Below are positions 12,904 to 23,991 of a DNA stretch of 26,276 nt, one piece after another. Source of the DNA: a virus. How positions within the stretch are numbered: position 1 is the first letter of the stretch; every line of letters begins with the position of its first letter. Made by a program: the position numbers and the translations under genes. The notes beneath the pieces were generated by a model. The model was not told the DNA's origin. It searched no databases and was given only the letters and a program-made list of their open reading frames with translations. The stretch spans positions 1 through 26,276 of the IMG/VR virus record IMGVR_UViG_3300035698_004072. One strand, 5' to 3'.

Positions 12904-14211
12904 TTATTGTATTAATTCTACTCGTATATCATCCCAACCAAACCAACCTGTCGAAGTTCCTGCACCTGCTAAACTTAATGAAGTGCTAGCTGATACAATC
13001 GATTCGTCGAAGCATTGCCAAATATCCGCAACAGCGTCTCCAATCCAAACAGTACCACCATTATAGACCTGTGGTGTATTTGTACCATCACTCAACGCGC
13101 AACCTGTTATTCTGTACTTTTCGCCGATAGTTAATATTCCAGATTGAGCAGTATTATAGTTAGCTGAACCGCCTGTTGCCACCTTCAACCATTGTTCACC
13201 TCTATACGGATTGTCGGTTTCCTTTGTAATAATCGCTCCCGATGAAACATACCAATCCGCAACGCCCGCATTTTCCATGTCGCCACTACTCACAAGAGTT
13301 GAACCACCTGCCATTTTTCCATTATAAACCTCGACTCGAACATCATCAAACTCCACATAGCCACTACTACCGAACGAGCCAAATAATAATTCAGTTCCTG
13401 TTAAATATCCCGATAAATCAAAAGGTTGCCATCCAGTAGCTACCGAACTTGTCCAAGAACCACCTGCCACACCATGAACCGACGGGAATTCGCTACCATC
13501 GCCCCTTGATTGTCCTGTTACTCTTACATGTGATCCCGATGGAAACGTAGTAACCGCCCAATAAGTTGCGCTTGTAGCAGTTACTCTCAATAATTGATCC
13601 CCTCTGTACGGATCGGTAGTTTCTTTGCTTAATGTAGCGTCGCGACCAGTATACTCGCTCGTACCAACCTCTTCCATATTACCATCTGTGAGAACGGTCG
13701 CCCCGCCTGTCGGAGTTCCTTTGTATTCGGTAATACGAACATCATCGAACCAAGCAGAGCCGTCTTTATGCCCAAGCAGTTTAATGTCATCCGCTGTCGC
13801 AATAAATACGTTATCGCAATTTTGCCAAACAGCGTCGGAAGTTCCTGAACAAAGCGCGCCCGCGCCACCTGTCATAAAAAAGGCGCAATTAGCAGTACCA
13901 TCGCCACGCATTTTACCAGTAACACGATATGTTTCGCCAATAACCATTACATGATCTGTGTATGACCCGGGGTAATTCTCAATTTCATCTCCTGTAACTT
14001 TTAAGCTCTGCGTTCCTCTATAGAAAATAGTGTTATCTTTTGCTAAAGTAGCGCCACCACTAGCTGAATAATGAGTTGTGCCTGATTCCTCCATATCGCC
14101 ATCATCTAAAAGAGTGCCTTGACCTAAAATCATACTAGCCATTACCGGCGTTACCATAATCGAAATTATGATAAGCGGTGTTAATATCCTTGATATAAGT
14201 TTTTTAAACAT
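12904..14211 (-). CDS. Secreted protein with three CBM-like (jelly-roll) domains
   Basis: This 435-residue protein opens with a clear Sec signal peptide: a basic start (MFKKLISRI), a hydrophobic core (LTPLIIISIMV) and a likely cleavage after Ala25 (VMA/S). Three repeats of about 130 residues follow at 33-164, 172-298 and 304-435. Each begins with a DGDMEESG/DGNMEEVG/SGDMENAG turn, then YRG-x-Q-x-L-x-V, and ends with DD(V/I)R(V/I)E. This is the pattern of CBM4/9-type galactose-binding-like folds, whose repeats often bind sugars. Known tailed-phage virion proteins rarely have signal peptides, so this is odd in the head operon. It may coat host envelope glycans or act in the medium. Binding targets are unknown. 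Confidence 0.72.
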   Translation of the reverse strand: MFKKLISRILTPLIIISIMVTPVMASMILGQGTLLDDGDMEESGTTHYSASGGATLAKDNTIFYRGTQSLKVTGDEIENYPGSYTDHVMVIGETYRVTGKMRGDGTANCAFFMTGGAGALCSGTSDAVWQNCDNVFIATADDIKLLGHKDGSAWFDDVRITEYKGTPTGGATVLTDGNMEEVGTSEYTGRDATLSKETTDPYRGDQLLRVTATSATYWAVTTFPSGSHVRVTGQSRGDGSEFPSVHGVAGGSWTSSVATGWQPFDLSGYLTGTELLFGSFGSSGYVEFDDVRVEVYNGKMAGGSTLVSSGDMENAGVADWYVSSGAIITKETDNPYRGEQWLKVATGGSANYNTAQSGILTIGEKYRITGCALSDGTNTPQVYNGGTVWIGDAVADIWQCFDESIVSASTSLSLAGAGTSTGWFGWDDIRVELIQ

Positions 14212-20070: not shown

Positions 20071-21369
20071 TTAAATTTCTAGTTTATTATAAACCTTTTC
20101 AACCCTGTCGTTAAACTTTTTTTGAGTCGCCTGTGCTATATCGCCAAATTCGGCGCCCAAATCATCCAGCGGCACCCCGTTAAACATTAGTTCGTCGGCT
20201 AGTTCGTTATCGTTTAAATCCGCACCCCTTCGAAGTCTAGCTTCGTTGATCGTGATAATTCCAGCTTTAACATCTTCGCGCGTCGACGCGGCAATCTCTT
20301 GTTCGTCGTCAAAGCTTGATTCGTTAATAGCCATCGCAACATCTGTAATTCCAACGCTCGGAAGGTAATCATCGTTAATCACTCCCATAAAATCCAACTC
20401 GAACGGTCGAACAACATTATCGTAAAATTCTCTATAAATAATAAGCGCGTTGTTTCGTTGAACGCCCTCTGTATAACCAAGCAGGAAAGTATCAACCCCA
20501 AAAGCCACTACAATTTTTTTAGTAGTAAATAACCGCGTCTTAACATATTCCATATCTTTATGGCTCGGAACAATCGTTTTAATATCTTTTATATGCGGGA
20601 TTAAACCGGCTTTAAATTTATTCTTTGTTCCTCCAAACTTTTCGTCGACCTTGTCTTTTAACTCTTTAAATTGATCGTCGGTTAATTCGTCATCGGTTAT
20701 CAGTAAGTGGCTTGGCACGGCGCTATTTTCGTAAAACATTAAATTCGTAAGCTGGGCATTTAACTCGGCTTTACTATCCCAAACGATCGTTTCAATCGGC
20801 GACTCCCCTAGTAACGGCTGTTTTGTCGATTGGTATTTTGAATAATGTATAATCTCATCCGCAGAAAATGGAACCGAACCATAGTCGCCAATCATATTTT
20901 GCGAATACCCTTTGACGTTCCCGTACTCATCAGCGATTATTTCCATCGTGCGCGGATCAACCGACTTTATTCCTAACGGCTTATTATTCACATCAACCTC
21001 TTTGTGATAATACAAGTTCCCGCCGACCCATGTGTCGCGCACGAAATCGCGAGCCGCGCGGCGCATTGGATATTCCCTGCGATTCAATAAATCATTCGCA
21101 GCTTTAACACTTGTCGGGTTAGGGTCAAGGTCTGGGTTGGTTTTATTAACCCAAGTAACCCCGCCTTTTAACATCGAATCCTGCACCTTTTGAACCGACC
21201 GCTTAATGTCGACAAGATTGTTATATAAATTATAAATAACGTCGTAATTTACCCGCAAATCCTTTAATCCGACCTTTCCAGTATCACGCCAAAACCCGAA
21301 CGTCTTTGTCGGGTTGATCGCTTGCTTCACACTTGTAATTAGGTTAATAAACCCCTTTTTGATTTTCAT
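20071..21369 (-). CDS. Portal protein (HK97/lambda-type)
   Basis: This 432-residue protein lies between the large terminase and the MuF-like protein. It has the portal pattern: an N-terminal helix (MKIKKGFINLITSVKQAIN), the NYDVIYNLYNNLVDIKRSVQ helix, a wing segment (VDPRTMEIIADEYGNVKGYS) with PFSADEIIHYSKYQ, and stem-region helices (LLGESPIETIVWDSKAELNA). The KTRLFTTKKIVVAFGVD and IINDDYLPSVGITDV pieces are also portal-like. It forms the dodecameric ring for DNA entry. It shares a four-base overlap (ATGA) with the terminase. Confidence 0.88.
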   Translation of the reverse strand: MKIKKGFINLITSVKQAINPTKTFGFWRDTGKVGLKDLRVNYDVIYNLYNNLVDIKRSVQKVQDSMLKGGVTWVNKTNPDLDPNPTSVKAANDLLNRREYPMRRAARDFVRDTWVGGNLYYHKEVDVNNKPLGIKSVDPRTMEIIADEYGNVKGYSQNMIGDYGSVPFSADEIIHYSKYQSTKQPLLGESPIETIVWDSKAELNAQLTNLMFYENSAVPSHLLITDDELTDDQFKELKDKVDEKFGGTKNKFKAGLIPHIKDIKTIVPSHKDMEYVKTRLFTTKKIVVAFGVDTFLLGYTEGVQRNNALIIYREFYDNVVRPFELDFMGVINDDYLPSVGITDVAMAINESSFDDEQEIAASTREDVKAGIITINEARLRRGADLNDNELADELMFNGVPLDDLGAEFGDIAQATQKKFNDRVEKVYNKLEI

Positions 21370-22721
21370 ACTATATGAACGTTAATGCTTACTTGCGGCT
21401 TTAAATCAAAATACGCCCTCATCATTATTGCGTCTGCATAATCTGGCGACCTCCCGAGATTTTCTTTTATCATATCTTTTGAAATTATTGAAAGTTTTGA
21501 ATCTTTATCAATATCTCTCTGCTTTATTTGCGACAATTCGTCGACGATCAAGTCCTTAATTGTGTCGTCAATATTCCTAATACTAATAATACCCTGTTCA
21601 ACTTGCGTTGCCAAATAAAAATAGCATTGCGCCTTGAGATTTGCATAATTTTGGATAAACAGCTCTTTCGATTCTAACCGCTTTTGTTTCTTCGTTGTAA
21701 TCGGGCGCCCCCCATTTAAGAATCCTTTGCACCCCTTAAACATATCGACAACGCCGCCACCGACCCCGTCTTCGTCGACTATTACATTCGAGCGCCGGAG
21801 ATTTAACGTCGCGCAAATTTTCTTTAAATTCTTAACGACCAGATCCAGCCCTGATTTATTAATAGTCCAGATTTTGCGCACTTGCCAACCGTTCCAATAA
21901 ACTATCACCGTTTTGTCGCTCCCCATTCGCGCCACATCCACGCTTAAAAACTTTTTCCCGCCTTCGCCCTCATTCGTAAACATATCAATCAGCGAGTCAT
22001 GGTCGAATAGCCTAGCCGGATCATCGTCGTATTCCCAATTTCCATAAAGCAAGCGTTCCCGAGAATTTTTATCTAACTTCTTTAAATTTTCGACGTAATG
22101 TTTTGATATAAAAGGGTTATCCGCGACTAGCGCTTGAACAAATCGCTTATGCTTTGGCAACGTACCCTTTTTAAACGGGCTATAAAACTCTGAATAGACC
22201 CATCCCTTGCTCGGATTACAAGAAAATAAAATCTTTGGAATAAGCCCGTTTTCATCTAGTTTGTAACGAATACGAGATTTTAATATATTCACACCCTTAA
22301 CCGACACTTGATTAACTTCATCGACAAAAGCGCCGGTAATTTCTAACGACCCCAGCCCGTCAAAGTTCGGATCTGATGGATAATAAAACAATTCTTTTAA
22401 TAAGATCTTTGACCCATTAATAAAAGTAATCCCCTCGAATTGGTTATAAGTAAAATGCTTTCCCGACTCTATTCCCCACATCGAACACACCTCAAAAAAA
22501 GTAACTAGCGTCGTTTCTTTAAGCCTAGCCAAAACCTCACGCGCCATAACCCAGCGGGTGCGTGGGTAAGTTATGCACATAATTAAAAGCCACGCGCAAC
22601 CCAGAAAACTTTTAGCGCCACCAGCCCCGCCACCAAATAAAACCTCATTAGTGGTTTTGTCTAAAAGATATTCAAACGCTTTTCTTTGCTTTCTTGTTTT
22701 TTCCCACCTTATCTTTACCAT
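21366..22721 (-). CDS. terL: Terminase large subunit
   Basis: This 451-residue packaging motor has an N-terminal ATPase and a C-terminal nuclease. The Walker A-type loop GGGAGGAKS is at residues 30-38. Walker B with the catalytic Glu lies in GAFVDEVN (Asp134-Glu135). A coupling motif follows in LFSCNPSKGWVYSEF. The nuclease domain has its first Asp in FLSVDVARMGSDKTV, a second acidic site in NVIVDEDGVGGGVVD and the last in RSPDYADAIMM. It would cut and translocate concatemeric DNA into the prohead. The start lies inside the small subunit gene (50-base overlap). The family assignment is secure. Headful or cos packaging cannot be decided here. Confidence 0.95.
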   Translation of the reverse strand: MVKIRWEKTRKQRKAFEYLLDKTTNEVLFGGGAGGAKSFLGCAWLLIMCITYPRTRWVMAREVLARLKETTLVTFFEVCSMWGIESGKHFTYNQFEGITFINGSKILLKELFYYPSDPNFDGLGSLEITGAFVDEVNQVSVKGVNILKSRIRYKLDENGLIPKILFSCNPSKGWVYSEFYSPFKKGTLPKHKRFVQALVADNPFISKHYVENLKKLDKNSRERLLYGNWEYDDDPARLFDHDSLIDMFTNEGEGGKKFLSVDVARMGSDKTVIVYWNGWQVRKIWTINKSGLDLVVKNLKKICATLNLRRSNVIVDEDGVGGGVVDMFKGCKGFLNGGRPITTKKQKRLESKELFIQNYANLKAQCYFYLATQVEQGIISIRNIDDTIKDLIVDELSQIKQRDIDKDSKLSIISKDMIKENLGRSPDYADAIMMRAYFDLKPQVSINVHIV

Positions 22722-23046
22722 CGACAGTTGTCATTATAATTTCAAACTGATTTTGGATCCCTGTATGGTCTTGTTCAACGCGTGTACTAAACTCTGTTTT
22801 CCGCTTCCGCTCCAGAAACCATTTCGCAGTATCAACCTCATGTAAATTTGTCGCGATTGTCTGGTAAGCTTCAAGAACCGGCTTTTCCCGCAATCTGTCA
22901 AATTTTTCACCGAGCTTTTTATTCTCTTTTACCCAATTATAATAAGTTTGGCGGGTTATATCAGCATAAAAACAAGCCGCCGACACATCCGCGCCGATCG
23001 AAAAAGCTTCTTCTAGTTTTTTTACAGTAAGTTTGTCGAATTTCAT
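22672..23046 (-). CDS. terS: Terminase small subunit
   Basis: I use the ATG at 23046 (124 residues). A longer frame begins 23 codons upstream, but the clear AAAGGA box six to seven bases before 23046 fixes the start. This is one of the few Shine-Dalgarno sites in the window. The N-terminal region MKFDKLTVKKLEEAFSIGAD, SAACFYADITRQTYYNWVKE and ENKKLGEKFDRLRE is a helix-turn-helix DNA-binding domain like those of small terminases. The C-terminal part includes LHEVDTAKWFLERKRKTEFS. It recognises the packaging site and loads the large subunit, which overlaps it by 50 bases. Confidence 0.88.
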   Translation of the reverse strand: MKFDKLTVKKLEEAFSIGADVSAACFYADITRQTYYNWVKENKKLGEKFDRLREKPVLEAYQTIATNLHEVDTAKWFLERKRKTEFSTRVEQDHTGIQNQFEIIMTTVDGKDKVGKNKKAKKSV

Positions 23047-23047
23047 A

Positions 23048-23392
23048 TTAAATTCCTTTAATTGGTATATGTGTTGAAATTTCCCAAAAGCGGTCATTTC
23101 CCTTCCCGCCACCACCGGCGACGTTGTTGTTTTTCCTTACGATCCCGCGCCCCCATTTCTTAATTAACAGATCGCGCATTTCTATTTCCAAATCAATAGT
23201 CCGATATGAAGAGCAGCCACCTTCTTTAGTCCAATGTCCGGCTTTGAAACTGTGCTTTTTATCGACAACAATCGGCTGGTTAAATCCAAATTCTTTAATG
23301 GAAGCCGCGACCTGCCGGATCTGTTTATCGGGGTGCTTTTTGGCATTACTCGGATATGGCGTTATTTCGTTAATGTCTTTTAATTTATTCAT
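23048..23392 (-). CDS. ParB-N-like protein with divergent C-terminal half
   Basis: Residues 1-52 match the N-terminal ParB/Srx-like domain common in phages: ITPYPSNAKKHPDKQI, then QVAASIKEFGFNQPIVVDKK and KAGH. Normally the GHxR motif and a helix follow. Here it becomes AGHWTKEGGCSS, and the rest (to 114) is unlike ParB, with RNNN- and Gly-rich basic pieces (WGRGIVRKNNNVAGGGG). The nucleotide-binding R is missing, so CTPase activity is doubtful. The gene may be a truncated or recombinant ParB, or a genuine short variant. It starts the packaging operon, with its stop one base from the terS start. Confidence 0.65.
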   Translation of the reverse strand: MNKLKDINEITPYPSNAKKHPDKQIRQVAASIKEFGFNQPIVVDKKHSFKAGHWTKEGGCSSYRTIDLEIEMRDLLIKKWGRGIVRKNNNVAGGGGKGNDRFWEISTHIPIKGI

Positions 23393-23409: not shown

Positions 23410-23991
23410 TTACGGCAATTTAAAGCCCGCGACGCCAATCCTAAACTCTTCCGGCGATCGAAACGGTTTAAGGGCATTATACTTAACTTCATAAAAATCA
23501 GCCTTCGGGATCATCTTCGTTCCGTTGGTTCGGGTGCGCTCTACACCCTTGCGGTGAAGCGTAACGCCCTCGACTTCGGCGATAACATCATATTTAGAAA
23601 TAGAACCTATAAATTCCATTACGCTTGTTAGGGTGTTTATATTAGCAAATAAATATATATCCGTTTCGTACTGCTTGCCGTTCACTTGCGACGAAAATAA
23701 GTTGTTAACAAACGATCCCGGTCTAAAGTTAGAGACGCGGGTTATCGTTTTAAGACCGACCTTCGTATTGTAAAACACAAAGTCCACGCCGCGATCGAAC
23801 CCCTTATCCGTTGGCCGTGACTCACTTAACCGATCGCAAAGCACGGTTTCGCCAAGCAACCCCGCGTAACGTCCAATAAATGATCCATTGGCACCAGATC
23901 GGCGATTCCCAATCCCCGAACTCTTTGCCAACGCCATAGCATATTTTTTTTGATCCAAGTTAATCTCAAGTGTAAAAAAGTCTATGTCCAT
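23410..23991 (-). CDS. Possible PD-(D/E)XK-type nuclease, 193 aa
   Basis: This protein has the outline of a restriction-like fold: a helix with Glu48 (RYAGLLGETVLCDRL), Asp70 (FDRGVDFVFY) and a strand with Lys81 (KVGLKTITR). The (D/E)xK acidic residue is absent: it reads GLK. Without it activity is uncertain, though some family members use other residues. Positions later show strands (DIYLFANINT) and a basic C-terminus. It is next to the VRR-NUC gene (10-base overlap), so both may act in recombination or restriction. The call is moderate and not certain. Confidence 0.45.
   Translation of the reverse strand: MDIDFFTLEINLDQKKYAMALAKSSGIGNRRSGANGSFIGRYAGLLGETVLCDRLSESRPTDKGFDRGVDFVFYNTKVGLKTITRVSNFRPGSFVNNLFSSQVNGKQYETDIYLFANINTLTSVMEFIGSISKYDVIAEVEGVTLHRKGVERTRTNGTKMIPKADFYEVKYNALKPFRSPEEFRIGVAGFKLP

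Follow-up and report, generated by a model that had tools for sequence, protein, structure and literature searches.

The 114-residue open reading frame (ORF) that lies directly before the small terminase gene (TerS) of this virus joins the front half of a ParB_N protein to a tail that sequence comparison identifies as the C-terminus of a glycosyltransferase of the TAGT family (PF20691). We regard the ORF as most likely the scar of a deletion between neighbouring ParB and TAGT genes, and its product as most likely an inert fusion pseudogene. The window, that is, the whole 26,276-base virus record that was analysed, has its main genes on the minus strand, arranged with replication-type genes first and then terminases, portal, capsid and tail. 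The features of interest are:

23048..23392, minus strand: fused ORF, 114 residues from ATG to TAA, ParB_N front half plus TAGT C-terminus
23234..23392, minus strand: ParB-derived part, residues 1-53, up to the A-G-H of the GHxR motif (phrog_930 and a local ParB profile)
23231..23257, minus strand: putative junction zone, codons 46-54 (ParB and TAGT alignments)
23051..23233, minus strand: TAGT-derived part, residues 54-114 (WTKEGGCSSYRT...IKGI; L093 TAGT match and TAGT33 profile)
22672..23046, minus strand: small terminase TerS (phrog_4102, E 6.9e-14)
21366..22721, minus strand: large terminase TerL (Terminase_3, E 3.9e-15)

The fused ORF is flanked by an ORF at 23410-23991 that belongs to no family and by TerS, whose ATG follows the stop codon of the fused ORF after one base. 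One short ORF, which begins as ParB and finishes as TAGT, fills the ParB-TAGT slot of the window. The flanking ORF (minus strand, 193 residues) matches nothing in Pfam or PHROG, and a search of viral contigs found no relatives. Elsewhere in the window, 12904-14211 (minus strand) encodes a secreted-looking protein of 435 residues, apparently built of three repeats of about 140 residues when inspected by eye, which has no PHROG match.

The ParB_N pattern recognised at the N-terminus by the first-pass annotation is confirmed over 53 residues. The ParB-like partition protein family phrog_930 matches residues 4-57 (E 1.3e-15), phrog_498 (named DNA methyltransferase) matches residues 3-53 (E 5.8e-13) and the local ParB profile aligns to residues 6-53 with 51.4 bits. 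Pfam ParB_N (PF02195) aligns to residues 8-47 only and at 15.8 bits stays below its gathering score of 26.3 bits. Phage ParB_N is also what tblastn indicates, with 299 phage records retrieved (E up to 1); in none of them did the match cover 80% of the query. After G52-H53, ParB relatives read x-R (for example GHGR or GHTR) where the fused ORF reads W-T-K-E; the arginine of the GxxR (GHxR) motif, whose loss had been remarked upon, is indeed absent (G52-H-W-T55). Replacement of this arginine with alanine abolished NTP binding in the tested ParB-fold proteins, according to excerpts of PMC12704722. With the window's own copy (L001) left out, the closest ParB half among all fetched loci is that of a ParB-methylase reading on contig L161 (29/47 identical), while the best TAGT-linked ParB is identical at 19 of 48 positions. 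The L161 reading (1555-2715) is split by a stop codon, and the TerS of that contig resembles the TerS of the window.

The remainder of the ORF had been described as unrelated sequence rich in Gly, Lys and Asn. It is unrelated to ParB, but it is homologous to TAGT C-termini, and the Gly/Lys/Asn richness belongs to a local stretch near the end (about residues 84-100) and not to the tail as a whole. Searched against viral contigs, the tail brought up L093 and L094 (E 2e-8), where the same words, HWTKEGGC..YRTID, end a 238-residue protein encoded after a ParB gene and before TerS and TerL. The L093 protein is a TAGT (PF20691, E 1.4e-12) and matches the tail at 56% over 34 residues. A profile of 33 TAGTs scores the fused ORF at 31.7 bits with E 2.2e-9, against 6.9 for the second-best of the 405 window ORFs and at most 6.2 for 5000 shuffled tails. 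This profile covers residues 40-89, with the Gly/Asn-rich stretch and the end falling outside it. Compared by eye, the TAGT of Streptococcus phage Javan291 (KKWGDKIVR...PPIKGV) and the window ORF (KKWGRGIVR...IPIKGI) end alike, so that the tail probably extends to the native TAGT end. A similar ending is seen in the ParB-TAGT locus L077, which was reached through TerL instead of through the tail.

The Pfam TAGT model is unsuited as a direct test of the tail because its end roughly coincides with the start of the tail (in L093, residue 197 of 238); four tested relatives from the 33-TAGT set pass its cut-off, and it finds nothing in the window record, either at the cut-off or with E relaxed to 10. 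Pfam gave no lead with the tail alone, and no match was obtained by tblastn of a 55-residue tail piece against phages or by a search of plasmids. The L093 TAGT as query found 64 loci, and a further scan retained 80 of 85 (some contigs repeat); it found none in genome contigs, from which query A3 recovered one MAG locus (L162).

Since L093 had been recruited by an eight-residue pattern taken from the tail, which is a recruitment bias, control profiles were run. Their results can be summarised as (i) a profile from seven TAGTs recruited without the tail places the fused ORF first of 5001 at 6.0 bits, the best shuffle scoring 5.8; (ii) addition of the Javan291 TAGT, itself found through the full-length L093 TAGT, raises this to 12.0 bits against at most 7.0; (iii) the tail without HWTKEGGC, the eight recruiting residues, reaches 9.7 bits against the 33-TAGT profile and is second of 10001 including shuffles, which is supportive, not overwhelming. 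Each of these scores alone is modest; taken with gene order and end point, they make a strong case for TAGT.

The analysis also brings out a recurrent ParB-TAGT-TerS-TerL block in many uncultured phages. Stop-to-stop ORFs of at least 40 residues were scanned, with L146 included among the ParB seeds and L150 left out, giving 184 ParB and 163 TAGT ORFs, among which only the window ORF contains both parts. Collapsed on their last 150 residues, the TAGT ORFs yield 87 distinct ones; five short TAGT ORFs are left out of this number (L154 and L164 at contig edges, the two halves of L156 divided by an internal stop, and the window ORF itself). A ParB ORF is next upstream in 80 of the 87, and the seven others comprise L200, L125 and L220, with less than 600 bases upstream, and L141, L157, L088 and L073, where the upstream stretch is not so short. 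TerL lies within 3 kb downstream in 66/87 (counted on distinct TAGT ORFs of 200 residues or more, with L243 added and L220 too short), and 11 more are near a contig end. Only 7 of 80 TerL-relative records contain a TAGT, so the block is common around TAGT and not general for this terminase group. A search based on TerS for close relatives gave four loci at 48-63%; by eye, no TAGT was found among the ORFs upstream of TerS in the stretch covered.

The block recurs in diverse uncultured phages (L093, L142, L146, L153 and others) and in a streptococcal phage, Javan291 (L243), where it reads ParB-TAGT-(one gene)-TerL; Microbacterium phage Merry has ParB, one small gene and TAGT. An overlap of some bases between the ParB and TAGT genes is frequent in the block. 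In L093 and L142 the TAGT end directly precedes TerS, which is where the tail ends in the window. In L133 (1367-4714) a single phage has ParB and methylase in tandem with a ParB-TAGT pair that comes after them. The TAGT of L156 (8-760) contains a single stop codon and the near-identical L155 is intact, which indicates decay or a sequencing error; it is a second hint that the TAGT gene can be lost, or else an error. Iyer et al. 2013 are said to be the likely source of the TAGT name and may, reportedly, already describe the block. Our literature searches on TAGT with ParB and on TET-associated glycosyltransferase listed no paper on a ParB-TAGT fusion.

Both halves of the window ORF are homologous to genes of this block, stand in the order of the block and lie before TerS. 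ParB homology runs to A-G-H (residue 53), and TAGT homology is clear from H53/W54. Judged from the alignments, the junction is most likely at the CAT codon of His53, common to the ParB 'GH' and the TAGT 'HW', and residues 46-52 could be assigned to either side. The window bases CATTGGACT are identical to those of the TAGT genes of L093 and L142. Four intact loci have the equivalent codons 1006 (L093), 1030 (L146), 1015 (L142) and 1024 (L153) bases apart, which makes a deletion of about 1.0 kb likely. We infer the following event, its exact ends and its consequence. The phage or a recent ancestor would have possessed the ParB, TAGT glycosyltransferase, TerS and TerL block, and a deletion from inside ParB, just past the AGH codons, to the conserved H-W inside TAGT would have removed roughly four fifths of TAGT as well as the remainder of ParB. 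A single in-frame ORF with the native ParB start and the native TAGT end would have been left behind, and the phage would thereby have lost this ParB/TAGT function. An intact parent was not found for this phage, and the event is therefore rebuilt from distant relatives, which reach 56% over 34 residues for the tail and 29/47 for the ParB half. Both halves show the phage's own codon style in the reading frame, and this, with the intact frame, indicates that decay has not visibly begun.

An AlphaFold2 (AF2) model of the intact L142 TAGT, made with 22 sequences (pLDDT 88.7), resembles GT-A-type enzymes, the nearest solved chains being AvpGT and TarP. This agrees with the placement of T6 TAGT as GT-A, GT2-like in the excerpted text of PMC13216743. 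By the model, the tail would correspond to L142 TAGT after about residue 190, comprising the final helix and two strands only. The DDD motif, invariant in 22 TAGTs, is absent from the 114-residue ORF together with the GT-A core. Since the ParB part, too, lacks the arginine of GxxR and the C-terminal half of its fold, neither half is expected to work, and the fused protein should neither bind nucleotide nor transfer sugar. AF2 applied to the fused protein as a single sequence without an alignment gave a pLDDT of 37, which is unusable as a model.

A recombination product or deletion remnant had been among the origins first suggested, and this reading is the best supported of them; the lost partner, however, would be TAGT and not (or not only) a methyltransferase. 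It is quite conceivable, and we hold this tentatively, that a larger deletion also took a methylase, the ParB half coming from an upstream ParB-methyltransferase gene. The L161 reading has the closest ParB, and L133 places ParB and methylase before a ParB-TAGT pair, but 47 residues are too few for firm placement, and the same stretch, AGH included, also aligns with TAGT-adjacent ParBs (L153, L146). The ParB half could be a remnant of a ParB-methyltransferase protein, as had been suggested; the tail is in the TAGT position before TerS. A methylase remnant as origin of the tail was rejected, since Pfam finds ParB_N only and no methyltransferase domain in the fused ORF. A new domain was likewise rejected, the tail matching TAGT. 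That the likeness to TAGT is due to chance, with the tail a novel domain, is the least credible of the readings considered: the independent seven-sequence profile alone is marginal, but the 31.7-bit match, the gene order and the end point all agree with TAGT.

A joint created by assembly or sequencing, in a phage that has intact ParB and TAGT genes, seems unlikely to us. The ORF comes from a single virus contig with no reads, and a second copy was not found. The stretch nevertheless contains no gap letters, and near the joint every 12-base word is unique in the contig, evidence against two places having been joined by an assembler. The overlap of ParB and TAGT at the joint, about one codon, would be too little for such joining, and codon score, GC and frame show no break there, with both halves matching the composition of the contig. 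There is very little in favour of a small adaptor or inhibitor that functions and is kept by selection. The ORF is open and in frame, with start, stop and coding-like codon use, but both halves are partial domains, and the low single-sequence pLDDT points the same way, weakly. The new short adaptor proposed in the first-pass annotation gained no support, as relatives with the same full-length arrangement were sought and no second example appeared in the phage and viral searches or among the 163 TAGT and 184 ParB ORFs, although absence is not provable from these. The chance is slighter still that the ORF is a selected mini-protein directed against the ParB/TAGT systems of competing phages, pairing the two partial halves as a dominant inhibitor or targeting piece.

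The fused ORF reflects an ordinary event, probably a deletion that left a scar, and merits an annotation note. This reading explains an odd protein as the join of two neighbouring genes, and cautions against naming it ParB or a new domain. Solitary TAGTs occur in 288 of 753 phage genomes according to excerpts of PMC13216743. The ParB partner may be a lead to how they choose their substrate.

In metagenomic phages, methylase and glycosyltransferase genes are found in variable islands, some of which discordant reads flag as deletions, and one packaging module contains a variable region of 2 kb (PMC7468147, in excerpt). The variable-region deletions are alike in gene types, and the excerpted text describes no ParB-TAGT fusion. 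The fused ORF resembles phage ParB_N proteins (PF02195; phrog_930, phrog_620) in its first 53 residues, to the P-motif Gly-His, but differs from them in having neither the arginine of GxxR nor the domain's C-terminal half, and in falling below the Pfam cut-off. ParB-methyltransferase proteins (phrog_498; the stop-split L161 reading) are nearest to its ParB half, whereas the fused ORF has no methyltransferase part and its tail is that of TAGT. With the TET-associated glycosyltransferases (TAGT, PF20691) it shares homology over the last 61 or so residues and the gene position before TerS; without the GT-A core and DDD motif, it is not to be called a member of that family.
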